This document shows, piece by piece, positions 13,761 to 18,553 of a DNA stretch of 42,639 nucleotides. The stretch lies in contig JAISOY010000181.1 of NCBI GenBank assembly GCA_031275285.1, positions 1-42,639 on the forward strand. The letters are read 5' to 3'. The notes under the pieces are model-generated. The model searched no databases and was not told the origin of the DNA. It saw nothing but the letters and a program-made list of their open reading frames with translations. The stretch comes from Bacteroidales bacterium. Lineage in GTDB: Bacteria > Bacteroidota > Bacteroidia > Bacteroidales > UBA4181. Made by a program: the position numbers and the translations under genes. Numbering within the stretch: the first letter of the stretch is position 1; every line of letters begins with the position of its first letter.

Positions 13761-14282
13761 TCATAATAAGATAAATTGTTTGCCTTTGATCATACCTTTG
13801 ATTTTCTTTAAGGCGACGGATATATGCTTTTCTACCATTTTCTCAGAGATTCTTTCTTTTTGAGCAATTTCTTTATATGTTAGCTTGTCATACCTGCTTA
13901 ATAGGAATACATTCTTACACTTCACTGGTAGTTCATCAATGGCTTTTTCCAACTTTTGGGTAAATATTTCTTTATCCACACATTCATACGCCTCCTGAAG
14001 CTGTTTCTCTTCCAGCATATAAGTGGCCAAAATGGAGGAATGTAATTTTTCATCGCGTATATAATTAAGCATCTTATTCCGTGCAGAAGTGTACAAATAT
14101 GATCTCACATGTTTTATCTGCAAAAAATCCCTGTTTGTCCAAAGGTTACAAAAAACATCCTGGACAACATCCTCAATGACACTCTCATTTTTGGTATATA
14201 AATTCAGAAACCGGCATATTGGCCGGAAGTATGCTTCATATATATCCTGAAAATTATTTTCGCCTATATAATTGTCCATCAT
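13761..14282 (-). CDS. ECF-type RNA polymerase sigma factor
   Basis: A 173-residue sigma-70 family protein with only regions 2 and 4, as in extracytoplasmic-function sigma factors. Region 2 (about 15-80) holds FQDIYEAYFRPICRFLN, the DVVQDVFCNLW core-binding helix and RSYLYTSARNKMLNYIR; region 4 (about 112-165) holds ELPVKCKNVFLLSRYDKLTY followed by the helix-turn-helix KEIAQKERISEKMVEKHI. It is the last gene of the fecR-like / STN-DUF3575 / sigma run, 19 bases after the barrel gene; in most such systems the sigma gene comes first. The start could be the first or second Met (14282 or 14279). It would be held by the upstream anti-sigma factor. Its targets are unknown. Confidence 0.93.
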   Translation of the reverse strand: MMDNYIGENNFQDIYEAYFRPICRFLNLYTKNESVIEDVVQDVFCNLWTNRDFLQIKHVRSYLYTSARNKMLNYIRDEKLHSSILATYMLEEKQLQEAYECVDKEIFTQKLEKAIDELPVKCKNVFLLSRYDKLTYKEIAQKERISEKMVEKHISVALKKIKGMIKGKQFILL

Positions 14283-14301
14283 TAAAGTGTTAAACCAATA
14301 G

Positions 14302-15372
14302 TTATCTTATTTTCCAGACAAGAGCAGCATTTACTTTGACAGGTCCAAAAAAATGTTTTGTTTTAGTATCTTCTTTCACGTTTGTTCCTTCAATGTATTG
14401 ATAAGTATCATGTTCAAACCGGGTATACCCGAAAGCCAATCCCGTGTCAAGGCTGATACGTTTACCCAAACCTATAAGGTATCCGAATATGATCCCACCG
14501 CCTGCCATATTACCCTGACGCCCTGTTTTTCCCAATTTCAGATTTAACTTTCCCAGCTGAAAAACAGCTCCTGTATACAAGCGTTTATTTTTCAACCAAT
14601 GAAACCTGACTTCAGGAAGCACTGCCCAGGAACGGTATGTTTTTTTTCCATCATCCCAATCAATATGAGACCATAATGCATTAACAACAAAACCTATCCG
14701 TTTATTCGGATAATATTCAACCCCTATATTAGGAGTAAGGGCCAGATCGTAAAGGAGATTGGTATGTAATGCAAATCCATATTCCTTATTTTTTTTTGCC
14801 GGTTGTGGTTTTACCGGGGGCTTTTTCGGGGGTTTTTCCGGAACAGGATCAGCTGAGAGATCCGTTATCTCAGCTGGTTCCTGAACCGGCTCTCTAGTTA
14901 ATTCAAATTTCGCAGGAATAGTATCCGAGACTACCTCCTGTTTGATCGAGTCGTCCACAGGTCTCTGTTTTTTTCCGGTATCCGCTTCCACCACCTTCTG
15001 GATAGGTGTGAATTCCGGACGGATTGGTTTGGATATCGGTTTTTCGGATGTCTTTTTTTCCTGATCATCATCATTTTCCTGGGTCTTGCGCTCAGTATGT
15101 TTTAATACCACTTGTTTATTTTTGATTTCAAAGGAAACATGTACTGATCCGGAAATATTTTCCATGACGGATCCGATATCCGAATCCTTTACGTCAATAG
15201 ATAATTCCTGCCGGTCATCGACATCATCATTGCTGTACATAAACCGATAACCGTATTTATCCTGCAACAATACCAGCAAGCCTTTTAAGGAACCGCTATA
15301 TTTTATGTGTATCTGCGCTTCTAAGGATAACATTATAAAGAGGCTTAATAATAAAATCAGGATTCTCTTCAT
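14302..15372 (-). CDS. STN domain fused through a Pro/Lys-rich linker to a DUF3575-like outer-membrane barrel
   Basis: A 356-residue protein. Residues 1-19 are a signal peptide (MKRILILLLSLFIMLSLEA). Residues about 22-92 are an STN (secretin/TonB N-terminal) domain: a FecCD-type pattern with IKYSGSLKGLLVLLQDKYGY and LSIDVKDSDIGSVMENISG. Residues 95-195 are a low-complexity Lys/Glu/Pro linker (PEKPPKKPPVKPQPAKKNKE). Residues 197-356 match DUF3575-type barrels (GFALHTNLLYDLALTPNIGV ... FHWLKNKRLYTGAVFQLGKL), ending in an aromatic-poor strand ALVWKIR. STN normally belongs to TonB-dependent transducers and contacts FecR in the periplasm. Here no plug or TonB barrel follows. It lies 8 bases after fecR and 19 before the sigma gene, so it is inferred to be the signal transducer of that pair. 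The domain calls are by eye. Confidence 0.75.
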   Translation of the reverse strand: MKRILILLLSLFIMLSLEAQIHIKYSGSLKGLLVLLQDKYGYRFMYSNDDVDDRQELSIDVKDSDIGSVMENISGSVHVSFEIKNKQVVLKHTERKTQENDDDQEKKTSEKPISKPIRPEFTPIQKVVEADTGKKQRPVDDSIKQEVVSDTIPAKFELTREPVQEPAEITDLSADPVPEKPPKKPPVKPQPAKKNKEYGFALHTNLLYDLALTPNIGVEYYPNKRIGFVVNALWSHIDWDDGKKTYRSWAVLPEVRFHWLKNKRLYTGAVFQLGKLNLKLGKTGRQGNMAGGGIIFGYLIGLGKRISLDTGLAFGYTRFEHDTYQYIEGTNVKEDTKTKHFFGPVKVNAALVWKIR

Positions 15373-15380
15373 ATTGACTG

Positions 15381-16364
15381 CTATTTCTTTGCTTCAATAT
15401 TCACTTTCTTTCCATCAATGGAGTAATCTATGGGAGTGATGGTTGAGAAAAGATCCAGAAAATCAAGTAATGATTCACCTTGTATATAAAATGTATATCG
15501 CTTATCCATTTCTAATCCGGTACAAGTGATCTCAATTCCATACCACTTTTCCAACTTCTCTATGATATGGACTAACGGTTCATTATACATGGCTAGATTT
15601 TCCTCGGTCCAGATATTGGAAATAGAAGTGTCCTGTTCGTGTAGAGAATAGGCCAGATCTGTTTTATTGACAGAAGCATATTGGGATGAATCCATCACAA
15701 AAAGCTGACGACCGGTATCAATACCAAAAACAGCTATTTTACCCGTTTTTAATGAAATTTCGACCTGGTCGTTGATTCCGGATGTTTTCAAATTAAAAGA
15801 AGTTCCCATCACTTCTATCTTTACTTTTCCCGCATGGATAATAAATTTCTTGTCAGACTTCATCACATCAAAAAATAACTCACCACTTACCGTAACTTCC
15901 CTGTTTTTCGTATTATACTGATTACTGAAAGTTAAATGGGAATTCACATTGAGCCATACCTGCGTTCCGTCAGCCAGTTTTATTTCAGATTTTTCTTTTG
16001 ACCTGGTACTAAAGGTTGTATATTGTTCCGGTTCGACGATTTCGCGGGATGTCCCCATATAATATAAAACAGTGGATATGGCCAAAATGACTGCAATGGA
16101 TGCTGTGGCAATGATCCCCGAATATTTCAATTTTCTGACTTTCCTTTTTTTCCGGAGACCCGTTTTTGCTTGAATCCCCCACCAAACAAGCGATTTGTCG
16201 GGAACGACCATGGAAGGATCATCAATATAGCGCCATTCCTTCCTCAAATCCAGAAACAATGCGAGGTTATCATCTTCCGAAAGCCATTGTTCAATATACT
16301 GATTCTCCTCCTGCGATGTTTGTTTCCGGCAATAACTGATCAATAACTCATAAGGCGTCTCCAT
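15381..16364 (-). CDS. FecR-family anti-sigma factor
   Basis: A 327-residue inner-membrane anti-sigma regulator. The cytoplasmic N-terminus (1-80, YELLISYCRKQTSQEENQYI) would hold the sigma factor; a single membrane helix follows at about 81-102 (SGIIATASIAVILAISTVLYY); the periplasmic part has the FecR domain (FSTRSKEKSEIKLADGTQVW, then LNVNSHLTFSNQYN and VTVSGELFFDV) and a DUF4974-type tail (EPLVHIIEKLEKWYGIEITC). This is the usual Bacteroidetes FecR build. It is first in a tight run with the STN-barrel and sigma genes. The MITE ends 87 bases upstream of its start, so its promoter must lie between the element and the ATG, inside the MITE, or further upstream by read-through. Confidence 0.93.
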   Translation of the reverse strand: METPYELLISYCRKQTSQEENQYIEQWLSEDDNLALFLDLRKEWRYIDDPSMVVPDKSLVWWGIQAKTGLRKKRKVRKLKYSGIIATASIAVILAISTVLYYMGTSREIVEPEQYTTFSTRSKEKSEIKLADGTQVWLNVNSHLTFSNQYNTKNREVTVSGELFFDVMKSDKKFIIHAGKVKIEVMGTSFNLKTSGINDQVEISLKTGKIAVFGIDTGRQLFVMDSSQYASVNKTDLAYSLHEQDTSISNIWTEENLAMYNEPLVHIIEKLEKWYGIEITCTGLEMDKRYTFYIQGESLLDFLDLFSTITPIDYSIDGKKVNIEAKK

Positions 16365-16654
16365 GATGTATCTATTCTTTTTATTTCAACACAATATATC
16401 TATTTTTTCCGATCCAGCAAATATTCATCTCTTCATCCGGATGTTTTTCTATGAGGCTGTCCAAAAAGTCCAAAACAACGGCTTAACCTTTAGCTCGAAG
16501 AAGTCAACTTAGCGCAGCATTCTCAACGAAGTTAATTACAAATTAAGCCGAACGCTAGTCCTTGTAAAATAAGCAGAATTTGTAATTACTTGTGTGAGGG
16601 CTTCGCCGTTCCGATCTAAAAATAACTTTTGGGACAGCCTCATGAACACTTTTT
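16365..16654. other. Gap between the fimbrillin-like gene and fecR
   Basis: 290 bases, of which 193 are the MITE. The remaining 86 bases before fecR (16365-16450) are AT-rich; AATATTTG at 16418-16425 (minus) is one base off the -7 consensus and is the only promoter-like word seen. No RNA gene was recognised. Confidence 0.5.
16451..16643. mobile_element. MITE-like element, 193 bp, with 19-bp terminal inverted repeats
   Basis: The left end ATGAGGCTGTCCAAAAAGT (16451-16469) and the inverted right end (16625-16643) match at 18 of 19 positions. Inside, further inverted segments are nested: AACGGC (16477-16482) with GCCGTT (16605-16610), CGAAG/CTTCG, and AATTACAAATT (16534-16544) with AATTTGTAATT (16577-16587), so the whole unit can fold on itself. 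It is too short to code for a transposase. Ends of the GAGGCTGTCC type are found on insertion sequences of Bacteroidetes, so a parent element probably mobilised it. It sits 11 bases beyond the stop of the fimbrillin-like gene and 86 bases before fecR. A two-base AT duplication at the borders is possible but cannot be distinguished from the repeat. Confidence 0.85.
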
Positions 16655-17545
16655 TTAGAATGTGACTACTTCATTGACCCATTTTTCCTGCAGAAAAAGG
16701 TTTATATCCTGATCTTCCTGCAATGCATTCCCCAGATTCCCCTTTATTGTTGTCCTTACGTCTTTTTTTACAGGAACGGATGTCAACAGAATTGATTTCG
16801 TTGGTGTTCCGTCATTATAGGTTATGACCAGATGTACCTTTACCCGGTTATCCTGGGTAGGATACGAAGTAAGGCTATTGAATGCAGTTTCCCGACGGAA
16901 ATCCGAAACTGTTTTGGAAGTGAGGGTATTGACAAAACTGAAGAAATGCCCTTCCTTGCTTCCCATAAAAAATGTTGGAGAAACACCATCTGTCTTTATG
17001 CCGATAGATTGAACCGAAGAAGGGATATAACAGGTCGCCCTGTCCAATATCTCTACATCGATCTCTCCCCACATTCTTTCCAACAAGACATTTTTAACCG
17101 TATCTGTATCATTTGAGGGCCGGACAGATAAATTAAAAGCTTGATAAAATGCTTTGGGATAAATAACCGTATCTGTAGAGAAATTCCTGGCTACGACATC
17201 ATACCTTCCATTGTTCAGATCTGAATCGGGCGAACCGATTATAGCAATCTGGTACAATCCGGAAGGAAGCATATCTTTGATCTCTTTTCCGTATCCTTTC
17301 TTTTGCTTTACAGGTATTCCGGAAGAAGTATACACAAAGTACTGGTAATGGACTGAATCCCTGGAAGGATATACAGTATCGGACAAAGCATTGCTTTTGA
17401 TCAAAGGTTGATCTTCAGCAGTAAAGTCCAAGTTCGTTGAAAATGTAACCGGATAAAGTTCTTCCGGGGTGTTCATCAATTCCTGTTTTTCGGAACACGC
17501 CATCAGAAAGATGACCATAATTACGAATAAATTACATTTTTTCAT
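16655..17545 (-). CDS. Fimbrillin-like (FimB/Mfa2 family) surface lipoprotein
   Basis: A 296-residue lipoprotein. It opens with a lipoprotein signal, MKKCNLFVIMVIFLMAC, with the modified Cys at 17 followed by SEK. The start at 17545 is chosen over 17599 because the lipobox sits correctly only from this Met. The rest is beta-rich with the pattern of fimbrial anchor/minor subunits: a first domain with YQYFVYTSSGIPV and LPSGLYQIAIIGSP, and a second ending VPVKKDVRTTIKGNLGN, which resembles the end of FimB/Mfa2-type proteins. These proteins anchor or cap Bacteroidales fimbriae; no other fimbrial subunit is in the window. Its position upstream of the sigma/FecR module, with DUF3575 barrels often found near fimbrial genes, suggests a link. 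The family call is moderately sure. Confidence 0.65.
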   Translation of the reverse strand: MKKCNLFVIMVIFLMACSEKQELMNTPEELYPVTFSTNLDFTAEDQPLIKSNALSDTVYPSRDSVHYQYFVYTSSGIPVKQKKGYGKEIKDMLPSGLYQIAIIGSPDSDLNNGRYDVVARNFSTDTVIYPKAFYQAFNLSVRPSNDTDTVKNVLLERMWGEIDVEILDRATCYIPSSVQSIGIKTDGVSPTFFMGSKEGHFFSFVNTLTSKTVSDFRRETAFNSLTSYPTQDNRVKVHLVITYNDGTPTKSILLTSVPVKKDVRTTIKGNLGNALQEDQDINLFLQEKWVNEVVTF

Positions 17546-17647
17546 GATTCCATTCTTTTTTGGTGAATAATAAGGGTTATTGTATCCATGAGACACCAAT
17601 CAATAAAAATACCCTACCCTCCTCAAAAAATAAATATGGAAAAATAT

Positions 17648-18526
17648 TCAGGCCTTTTCTGCATACTCCCTGATCCGTTCTTCACATAGCCGTTTTACCA
17701 GTTCAAAAAAACGGTCTATCGTCGGTATCAAAGCCTCGATGTCTTTTTTTGTTGCTTGAAATTCAGGAATATATCGTGCCTCGACATATGCCGATTTGAT
17801 CAAATCAAAAAGTCGTTTTTCTTCAGCTGTCTGGCGCGGAAATACTTGGACAAACTCATTGGAGTAGCTTTTTACTGAAGCCAGTAATTTGGATAAATTA
17901 TGCTGCTTACTGTTCTCCAAAGTAAAAACCAGACGAACGGCATAAAACAAGTTTTCACAAGTCTGATGTAAGTTAAAAGCCGTTTTTTTATACCAACCTT
18001 TGGAGTAAGTAAAATCTGCTATTTCCAAAAACTCTTCCGCGCTCCGGTATTTATCGACAAAATATTCTTCCGCCTGTTTTTTTATTTCATCATAACGAAG
18101 TTTCCGCCTGCGGGCGAGTTTAAATCTACCGTTGTTATATAATAGTATCCCTTCCTTTTTGATCTGTGTGTAGAAATACCTTCCTTCAGACAAGTCTTTA
18201 TTCAACTTCTTGATATCATCATTGATAAATTGTACCGGCGTCTGTAAATCAGGATCAGTATAATAATTCTGCTCCACAACGTCCAGTTTTTGCCCGGCAA
18301 TCTTATCTTTGATCCCATGTGTAACAATCAGAATATCATAATCACTCATATAGGAAATACGCCTGCCGGATTCTATACGTTCATCACGTTCTACATATTT
18401 GCCTGTCGCATAGCTCCCGTATAAAATGATCATCTGGGTCTCAGGAATCAATTCCAATACGGATTTTACCAGGAAAAGAAGATCATCCTGTTTACGCTTG
18501 GGTAAATGTGCTATTGATTGTTTCAT
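17648..18526 (-). CDS. Nucleotidyltransferase-HEPN fusion protein
   Basis: A 292-residue protein joining two domains. Residues about 15-130 are a minimal nucleotidyltransferase (pol beta fold): YGSYATGKYVE (Gly37-Ser38) followed by MSDYDILIV with Asp62 and Asp64, the metal ligands. Residues about 150-285 are a HEPN helical domain with SAEEFLEIADFTYSKGWYKK, AFNLHQTCENLFYAVRLVF and YVEARY. The RNase motif R-x4-6-H of toxic HEPN proteins is not evident. Two-gene MNT/HEPN pairs act as toxin-antitoxin systems; in this fused form the role is unknown and it could modify a nucleotide or protein substrate. Start 18526 is preferred over 18565 because a -7 element (18554-18561) falls between them. Two palindromes lie further upstream. 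Confidence 0.8.
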   Translation of the reverse strand: MKQSIAHLPKRKQDDLLFLVKSVLELIPETQMIILYGSYATGKYVERDERIESGRRISYMSDYDILIVTHGIKDKIAGQKLDVVEQNYYTDPDLQTPVQFINDDIKKLNKDLSEGRYFYTQIKKEGILLYNNGRFKLARRRKLRYDEIKKQAEEYFVDKYRSAEEFLEIADFTYSKGWYKKTAFNLHQTCENLFYAVRLVFTLENSKQHNLSKLLASVKSYSNEFVQVFPRQTAEEKRLFDLIKSAYVEARYIPEFQATKKDIEALIPTIDRFFELVKRLCEERIREYAEKA

Positions 18527-18553
18527 GATGCAAGGGTTGGAATATCCGATGCA

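Follow-up and report, generated by a model that had tools for sequence, protein, structure and literature searches.

The window, the whole stretch of 42,639 nucleotides that was analysed, carries on its minus strand a set of four genes with intact reading frames and operon-like spacing. A 296-aa lipoprotein with the lipobox LMAC (17545-16655), probably the first gene of an operon, is followed by a 327-aa FecR-type anti-sigma factor (16364-15381), by a 356-aa transducer with an N-terminal signal peptide, in which an STN-like domain is joined to DUF3575 (15372-14302), and by a 173-aa ECF sigma factor (14282-13761). In the ORF map, the FecR and transducer genes lie 8 bp apart and the transducer and sigma genes 19 bp apart; the gap between lipoprotein and FecR measures 290 bp, of which 193 bp belong to a MITE. 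These reading frames, strands and short gaps are as the initial annotation gave them. Its remark that no TonB-dependent receptor is present holds within the window by ORF size and identity: the ORF list of the window contains no receptor-sized frame with matching identity, and the only ORF above 700 aa encodes DNA polymerase III alpha. Upstream of the lipoprotein gene, positions 17648-18532 encode a nucleotidyltransferase-HEPN protein, which is weakly MntA-like.

The sigma factor is of the FecI-like Bacteroidota family TIGR02985 (5e-41, 140.7 bits against a cut-off of 126.4, NCBIfam) and stands beside an anti-sigma gene, as is characteristic of FecI/FecR/FecA signalling. The anti-sigma factor matches PF04773 (5e-16) and FecR_C, PF16344 (3e-14), in Pfam. 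It displays a single transmembrane helix at about residues 82-101, a periplasmic FecR domain and an STN-like FecR_C end, again the anatomy of the FecI/FecR/FecA type. As both proteins are full-length members of their families and orthologous to those of a second, independent locus, the arrangement is not due to chance.

Anatomy of the transducer

The C-terminal part of the transducer (residues 197-356, positions 14305-14784) passes the gathering score of DUF3575 (PF12099) over residues 200-354, with an E-value of 1e-27 and 96.9 bits against a cut-off of 21.1. The AlphaFold model, built on a 30-sequence barrel alignment, folds residues 199-354 into eight strands with a block pLDDT of about 84-97, and comparison with the barrels of OmpW, OprF, OmpA and NspA gave Z values of 13.9-14.7 (VIA-align), pointing at an eight-stranded outer-membrane barrel. 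Neither Plug nor TonB_dep_Rec matches the transducer in Pfam, which sets it apart from TonB-dependent receptors. The barrel is preceded by a tether of ~100 aa (residues 96-196, positions 14785-15087), 55% of which is P, K, R, E or D. This tether is mostly predicted to be disordered, with disorder in the model around residues 95-161, and both tether and barrel are complete.

The N-terminal domain (residues about 20-95, positions 15088-15315) stays below threshold with the Pfam STN model (PF07660). Its residues 30-89 match FecR_C at 22.4 bits (cut-off 24.4), and at 25.5 bits in another run; FecR_C and Pfam STN are sister models, both of which represent the STN fold. The best pairwise matches of the domain are STN domains of SusC receptors, with 38% identity and an E-value of about 1e-12 (pairwise) to the SusC STN of L283, one of the orthologous loci described below. 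The domain also retains the motif KYGY.F.YSN.D.DD.Q of its orthologues, and the model places an alpha-beta-beta-alpha-beta-beta order here at low confidence (pLDDT about 40-70). The FecR_C score, the 38% identity and the STN tree together indicate an N-terminal STN domain, as in FecI/FecR/FecA transducers. The STN-DUF3575 fusion proposed in the initial annotation is thus confirmed by PF12099 for its DUF3575 half and, for its STN half, by pairwise comparison and tree but not by the Pfam STN model.

Orthologous SusC operons and relatives of the barrel

Among about 390 genomes of the order, the closest FecR is found in G379 (44% identity, E-value 2e-79, with the next best at 9e-45) and, with an equal match, in G802, which carries a second, nearly identical locus. 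These two genomes share a family, which is another than that of the source genome. Both loci (L283 and L317) display the order FecR > STN-SusC > SusD > GH16 > sigma. Identities to the window amount to 53-55% for sigma (L283/L317), 43% for FecR (L283) and 38% for STN (L283). In three separately built trees, the window sequence groups with G379/G802, with SH-aLRT/UFBoot supports of 97.4/100 for sigma, 99.9/100 for FecR and 79.6/90 for STN. Sequences from the same genome or genus, considered as nearest kin of the window sigma or FecR, were rejected by the trees. The SusC-SusD-GH16 composition of the orthologues resembles the SigG/FecR set of Tannerella forsythia, where FecI/FecR/FecA-type signalling is encoded with susC-susD-glcA (GH16) (PMC13352502).

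The sister loci in the wider clade, where their sigma was seen, have the canonical order sigma > FecR > SusC with sigma factors 39-44% identical, which argues for the barrel version being the derived one. Most simply, the window operon would go back to a SusC-type set in which a DUF3575 barrel took the place of the TonB barrel: the SusC barrel, SusD and GH16 would have been lost or left out, and the DUF3575 barrel joined to the STN domain. The proposal of a small barrel in place of the TonB transducer is strengthened by the orthologous operons, which hold an STN on SusC in exactly that place. The gene order, earlier regarded as unusual, is a different matter. FecR followed by transducer is normal, and the sigma-last position is shared with the SusC-bearing orthologues, so it is no mark of the barrel system; most simply, it was already present before the window and G379/G802 operons diverged. 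Altogether, there is good evolutionary evidence, from one genome so far, for an exchange of the transducer barrel in FecI/FecR signalling.

We did not find the exact FecR/STN-DUF3575/sigma set, whose recurrence had been suggested as a check, in the genomes searched, an outcome that the initial annotation itself had listed as speaking against its interpretation. The full STN-DUF3575 chain was not found in about 770 other genomes (samples of relatives, family, order and class), with the best candidates per genome alone being scored in the two large samples. A single-protein scan of 84,980 species with the full protein as query returned no relative, and the barrel alignment was therefore used as query. 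None of the 80 nearest barrel loci from these species carries an STN-DUF3575 protein, in a ranking by barrel similarity that could miss fusions with remote DUF3575 types. The nearest barrel is 44% identical to that of the window. In the 80 nearest proteins, the barrel comes after a tether and an N-terminal region that is either OmpA-like or without assignment, and directly downstream of 68 of their genes lies a gene of about 270-310 aa, mostly for a lipoprotein; the few of these lipoproteins that were examined look like Mfa2-type fimbrial anchors, with PF08842 matches that range from weak to significant. The window set is thus akin to these loci (L130-L209) in barrel subfamily (up to 44%), tether and lipoprotein neighbour. 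Unlike in the window, their periplasmic domain is OmpA-like and not STN, and FecR and sigma are missing from the set. Long DUF3575 proteins of relatives (330-480 aa) were considered as further STN fusions, but the STN model matched none of them; in those inspected, the extra domain is OmpA-like or there is none that could be recognised. Likewise, the full-length-looking matches L135, L142 and L149 are without STN. The OmpA-DUF3575/lipoprotein loci come from gut Bacteroidales, and the role of the barrel there seems undescribed in the literature searched.

The window lipoprotein itself has no Pfam match, including PF08842 (Mfa2/FimB anchor), whose gathering score is not reached, and no solved relative. 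Profile comparison with the Mfa2-like family that accompanies DUF3575 barrels gave 93.7% with the signal peptide, against 23-38% for shuffles keeping the signal peptide, and 25.9% for the mature part, against 0-2% for shuffles. These values hint at kinship with this family and do not amount to membership. Of the "fimbrillin-like lipoprotein" of the initial annotation, the lipobox is therefore sound, and the fimbrillin-like character comes down to this weak match to an Mfa2-like anchor profile. Single-sequence structure prediction was uninformative (pLDDT 36).

A putative promoter and the extent of the operon

Comparison of the region upstream of the window lipoprotein with that upstream of FecR in L283 revealed one shared spaced motif, GGTAGGGT-N14-GTGTC; a shared motif as good was obtained for 2 of 400 shuffled pairs. 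In the window, this putative ECF promoter lies on the minus strand at 17592-17618, 46 bp before the lipoprotein ATG, and thus precedes the lipoprotein and not FecR. Among 328 loci, the exact motif occurs once in the window and otherwise only in L283 and L317, 20-odd bp before FecR. When the upstream regions of all sigma, FecR and STN genes were screened for the core TAGGGT-N14-GTGTC, it was found with at most two mismatches before FecR in 10 loci, always at 45-61 bp from motif start to ATG; 8 of the 10 had not been used in motif discovery, and about 2% of random 315-bp stretches contain the motif at any position. A motif-like element lies 45-61 bp upstream of the FecR start codon in L119, L284, L285, L289, L295, L323, L326 and L328. 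FecR genes of this group thus commonly have an ECF-promoter-like element in front of them. We regard the TAGGGT-N14-GTGTC-like element as a candidate ECF promoter class of FecR-linked sigma factors in the order Bacteroidales. A search of 1.5 Mb of the source genome gave no further exact copy, and the one informative relative of the motif there precedes another FecR (C124). Scans for sigma-70-type promoters and terminators gave no more hits than chance.

The MITE (16451-16643, assigned to no strand) has 19-bp inverted ends, ATGAGGCTGTCCAAAAAGT; its ends read ATGAGGCTGTCC, and it contains an inner inverted repeat. It belongs to a family with many copies in the genome, where 22 sequences match it fully or in part. 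It was inserted later between lipoprotein and FecR, and with 193 bp of the 290-bp gap taken up by it, the earlier spacing was about 97 bp. Because a FecR-type promoter-like motif precedes the lipoprotein here, the lipoprotein gene was likely placed between FecR and its promoter and would now head an operon of four genes that regulates itself. Read-through to FecR may have been changed by the MITE. A search for a promoter motif before the lipoprotein or the operon, called for at the outset, has thus yielded the ECF-promoter-like motif of related FecR loci, and its position before the lipoprotein makes the suggested control of this protein by the switch probable.

Proposed signalling route and its alternatives

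We consider it probable that the four genes form an operon for cell-surface signalling that regulates itself and arose from a FecI/FecR/SusC (PUL-type) set when the barrel of the transducer was exchanged. In the route that we infer, from barrel location and stimulus to STN-FecR contact and TonB independence, the DUF3575 barrel would sit in the outer membrane. The tether, in principle long enough to cross the periplasm, would let the STN domain reach the STN-like periplasmic C-terminus of FecR. An event at the cell surface would be sensed by the barrel, which the lipoprotein may assist, and would change this STN-FecR contact and free the sigma factor, which would then transcribe lipoprotein, FecR, transducer and sigma from the predicted promoter at 17592-17618. 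As the barrel has no plug domain, such signalling would not need TonB.

In known FecR/TonB systems, transducer and anti-sigma factor make contact through the STN of the former, which binds the STN-like end of the latter (PMC11637429). In the window, STN and FecR have been kept together as a pair. The window set shares with FecI/FecR/FecA signalling (PMC13352502) the ECF sigma, a FecR with periplasmic STN-like end and an outer-membrane transducer with N-terminal STN. Unlike these systems, its transducer is an eight-stranded DUF3575 barrel instead of a plug and TonB-type barrel, SusD and enzyme are missing, and sigma comes last and the lipoprotein first. A tethered barrel coupled with an ECF sigma and no TonB receptor recalls the Dma/Das system of Bacteroides, where control over an ECF21 sigma factor is exerted by a beta-barrel of the outer membrane that carries a long disordered tether; for the window, such control is part of the proposed route. 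Dma unites anti-sigma domain, transmembrane helix, tether and barrel in one polypeptide (PMC13088901). In the window, by contrast, the chain is split between two separate genes, for FecR (327 aa) and STN-DUF3575 (356 aa), whose products would meet via STN-type domains.

We give about an even chance to a broader reading, in which STN-FecR signalling is modular: an STN domain moved onto a tethered eight-stranded barrel would still control its ancestral FecR and sigma, as a TonB-independent, split Dma-like switch that governs, and perhaps senses, a Mfa2-like lipoprotein. Since a TonB-dependent receptor provides the STN signal in the known cell-surface systems, it is difficult to tell substrate binding, TonB energy and signalling apart. 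If the reading is true, an STN/FecR/sigma trio on a small plugless barrel, with the SusC-bearing orthologue as matched control, would offer a direct test of the need for TonB. It would also connect FecR signalling to the tethered-barrel principle of the Dma anti-sigma factors. DUF3575 barrels would then seem to be modules that can be combined with either OmpA-like or STN periplasmic domains.

The operon reading has to be weighed against one in which the lipoprotein is an unrelated neighbour and the three-gene set alone is the unit. The 290-bp gap would fit this view, as would the lipoprotein relatives in G103 and G195, which are not adjacent to FecR or transducer sets; with the MITE accounting for 193 bp of the gap and the FecR-type motif standing before the lipoprotein instead of FecR, we regard it as unlikely. 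Less likely still is that the set is a product of decay, i.e., that a former SusC-type locus lost its receptor, its STN was fused to a passing barrel without signalling, and FecR and sigma are now constitutive or silent. Such decay would account for a fusion seen in one genome only and for the long branches of the window sigma and FecR among same-genus sequences, but is hard to reconcile with four intact frames in operon-like spacing, the conserved STN motif, the complete tether and barrel and the exact promoter-like motif. An assembly chimera of an STN gene and a DUF3575 gene is barely credible: although the draft genome (5.5 Mb, 97% complete) is in 225 contigs, two exact joins would be needed, since orthologous FecR and STN lie upstream of the barrel and an orthologous sigma downstream.

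It is also very improbable that a conventional STN-TonB receptor encoded elsewhere drives the window FecR, with STN-DUF3575 as a modulator or partner of something else. STN domains can pair promiscuously, and at least 15 STN-SusC receptors are encoded in the genome; however, each one found lies beside its own FecR, leaving no spare receptor for that of the window, and C41, the one FecR for which no partner is seen, sits at a contig end. Moreover, the orthologue of the window FecR is partnered by an STN that is itself orthologous to the window STN. The search for a rival, unpaired STN-bearing receptor able to serve the window FecR thus came up empty in the source genome, and the preferred reading remains that STN-DUF3575 itself is the transducer.

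The genome contains 18 FecR genes. Of the 17 outside the window, ten follow the order sigma > FecR > STN-SusC and three have a divergent sigma; one locus (L121, G000:C195) reads SusC > sigma > FecR, another order in which sigma is not first. In one more no sigma is seen, a contig end truncates another, and the last is C1. C1 (G000:C1, L126:3365-6485) is a second TonB-less candidate, in which sigma and FecR (275 aa) are followed by an STN-CarboxypepD_reg protein of 504 aa, in which neither plug nor barrel was matched, and then by a UDP-glucose dehydrogenase gene. In the same genus, L127:643-1923 encodes a barrel-less 426-aa protein with two STN-CarboxypepD_reg units, followed by an ORF of more than 1200 aa.
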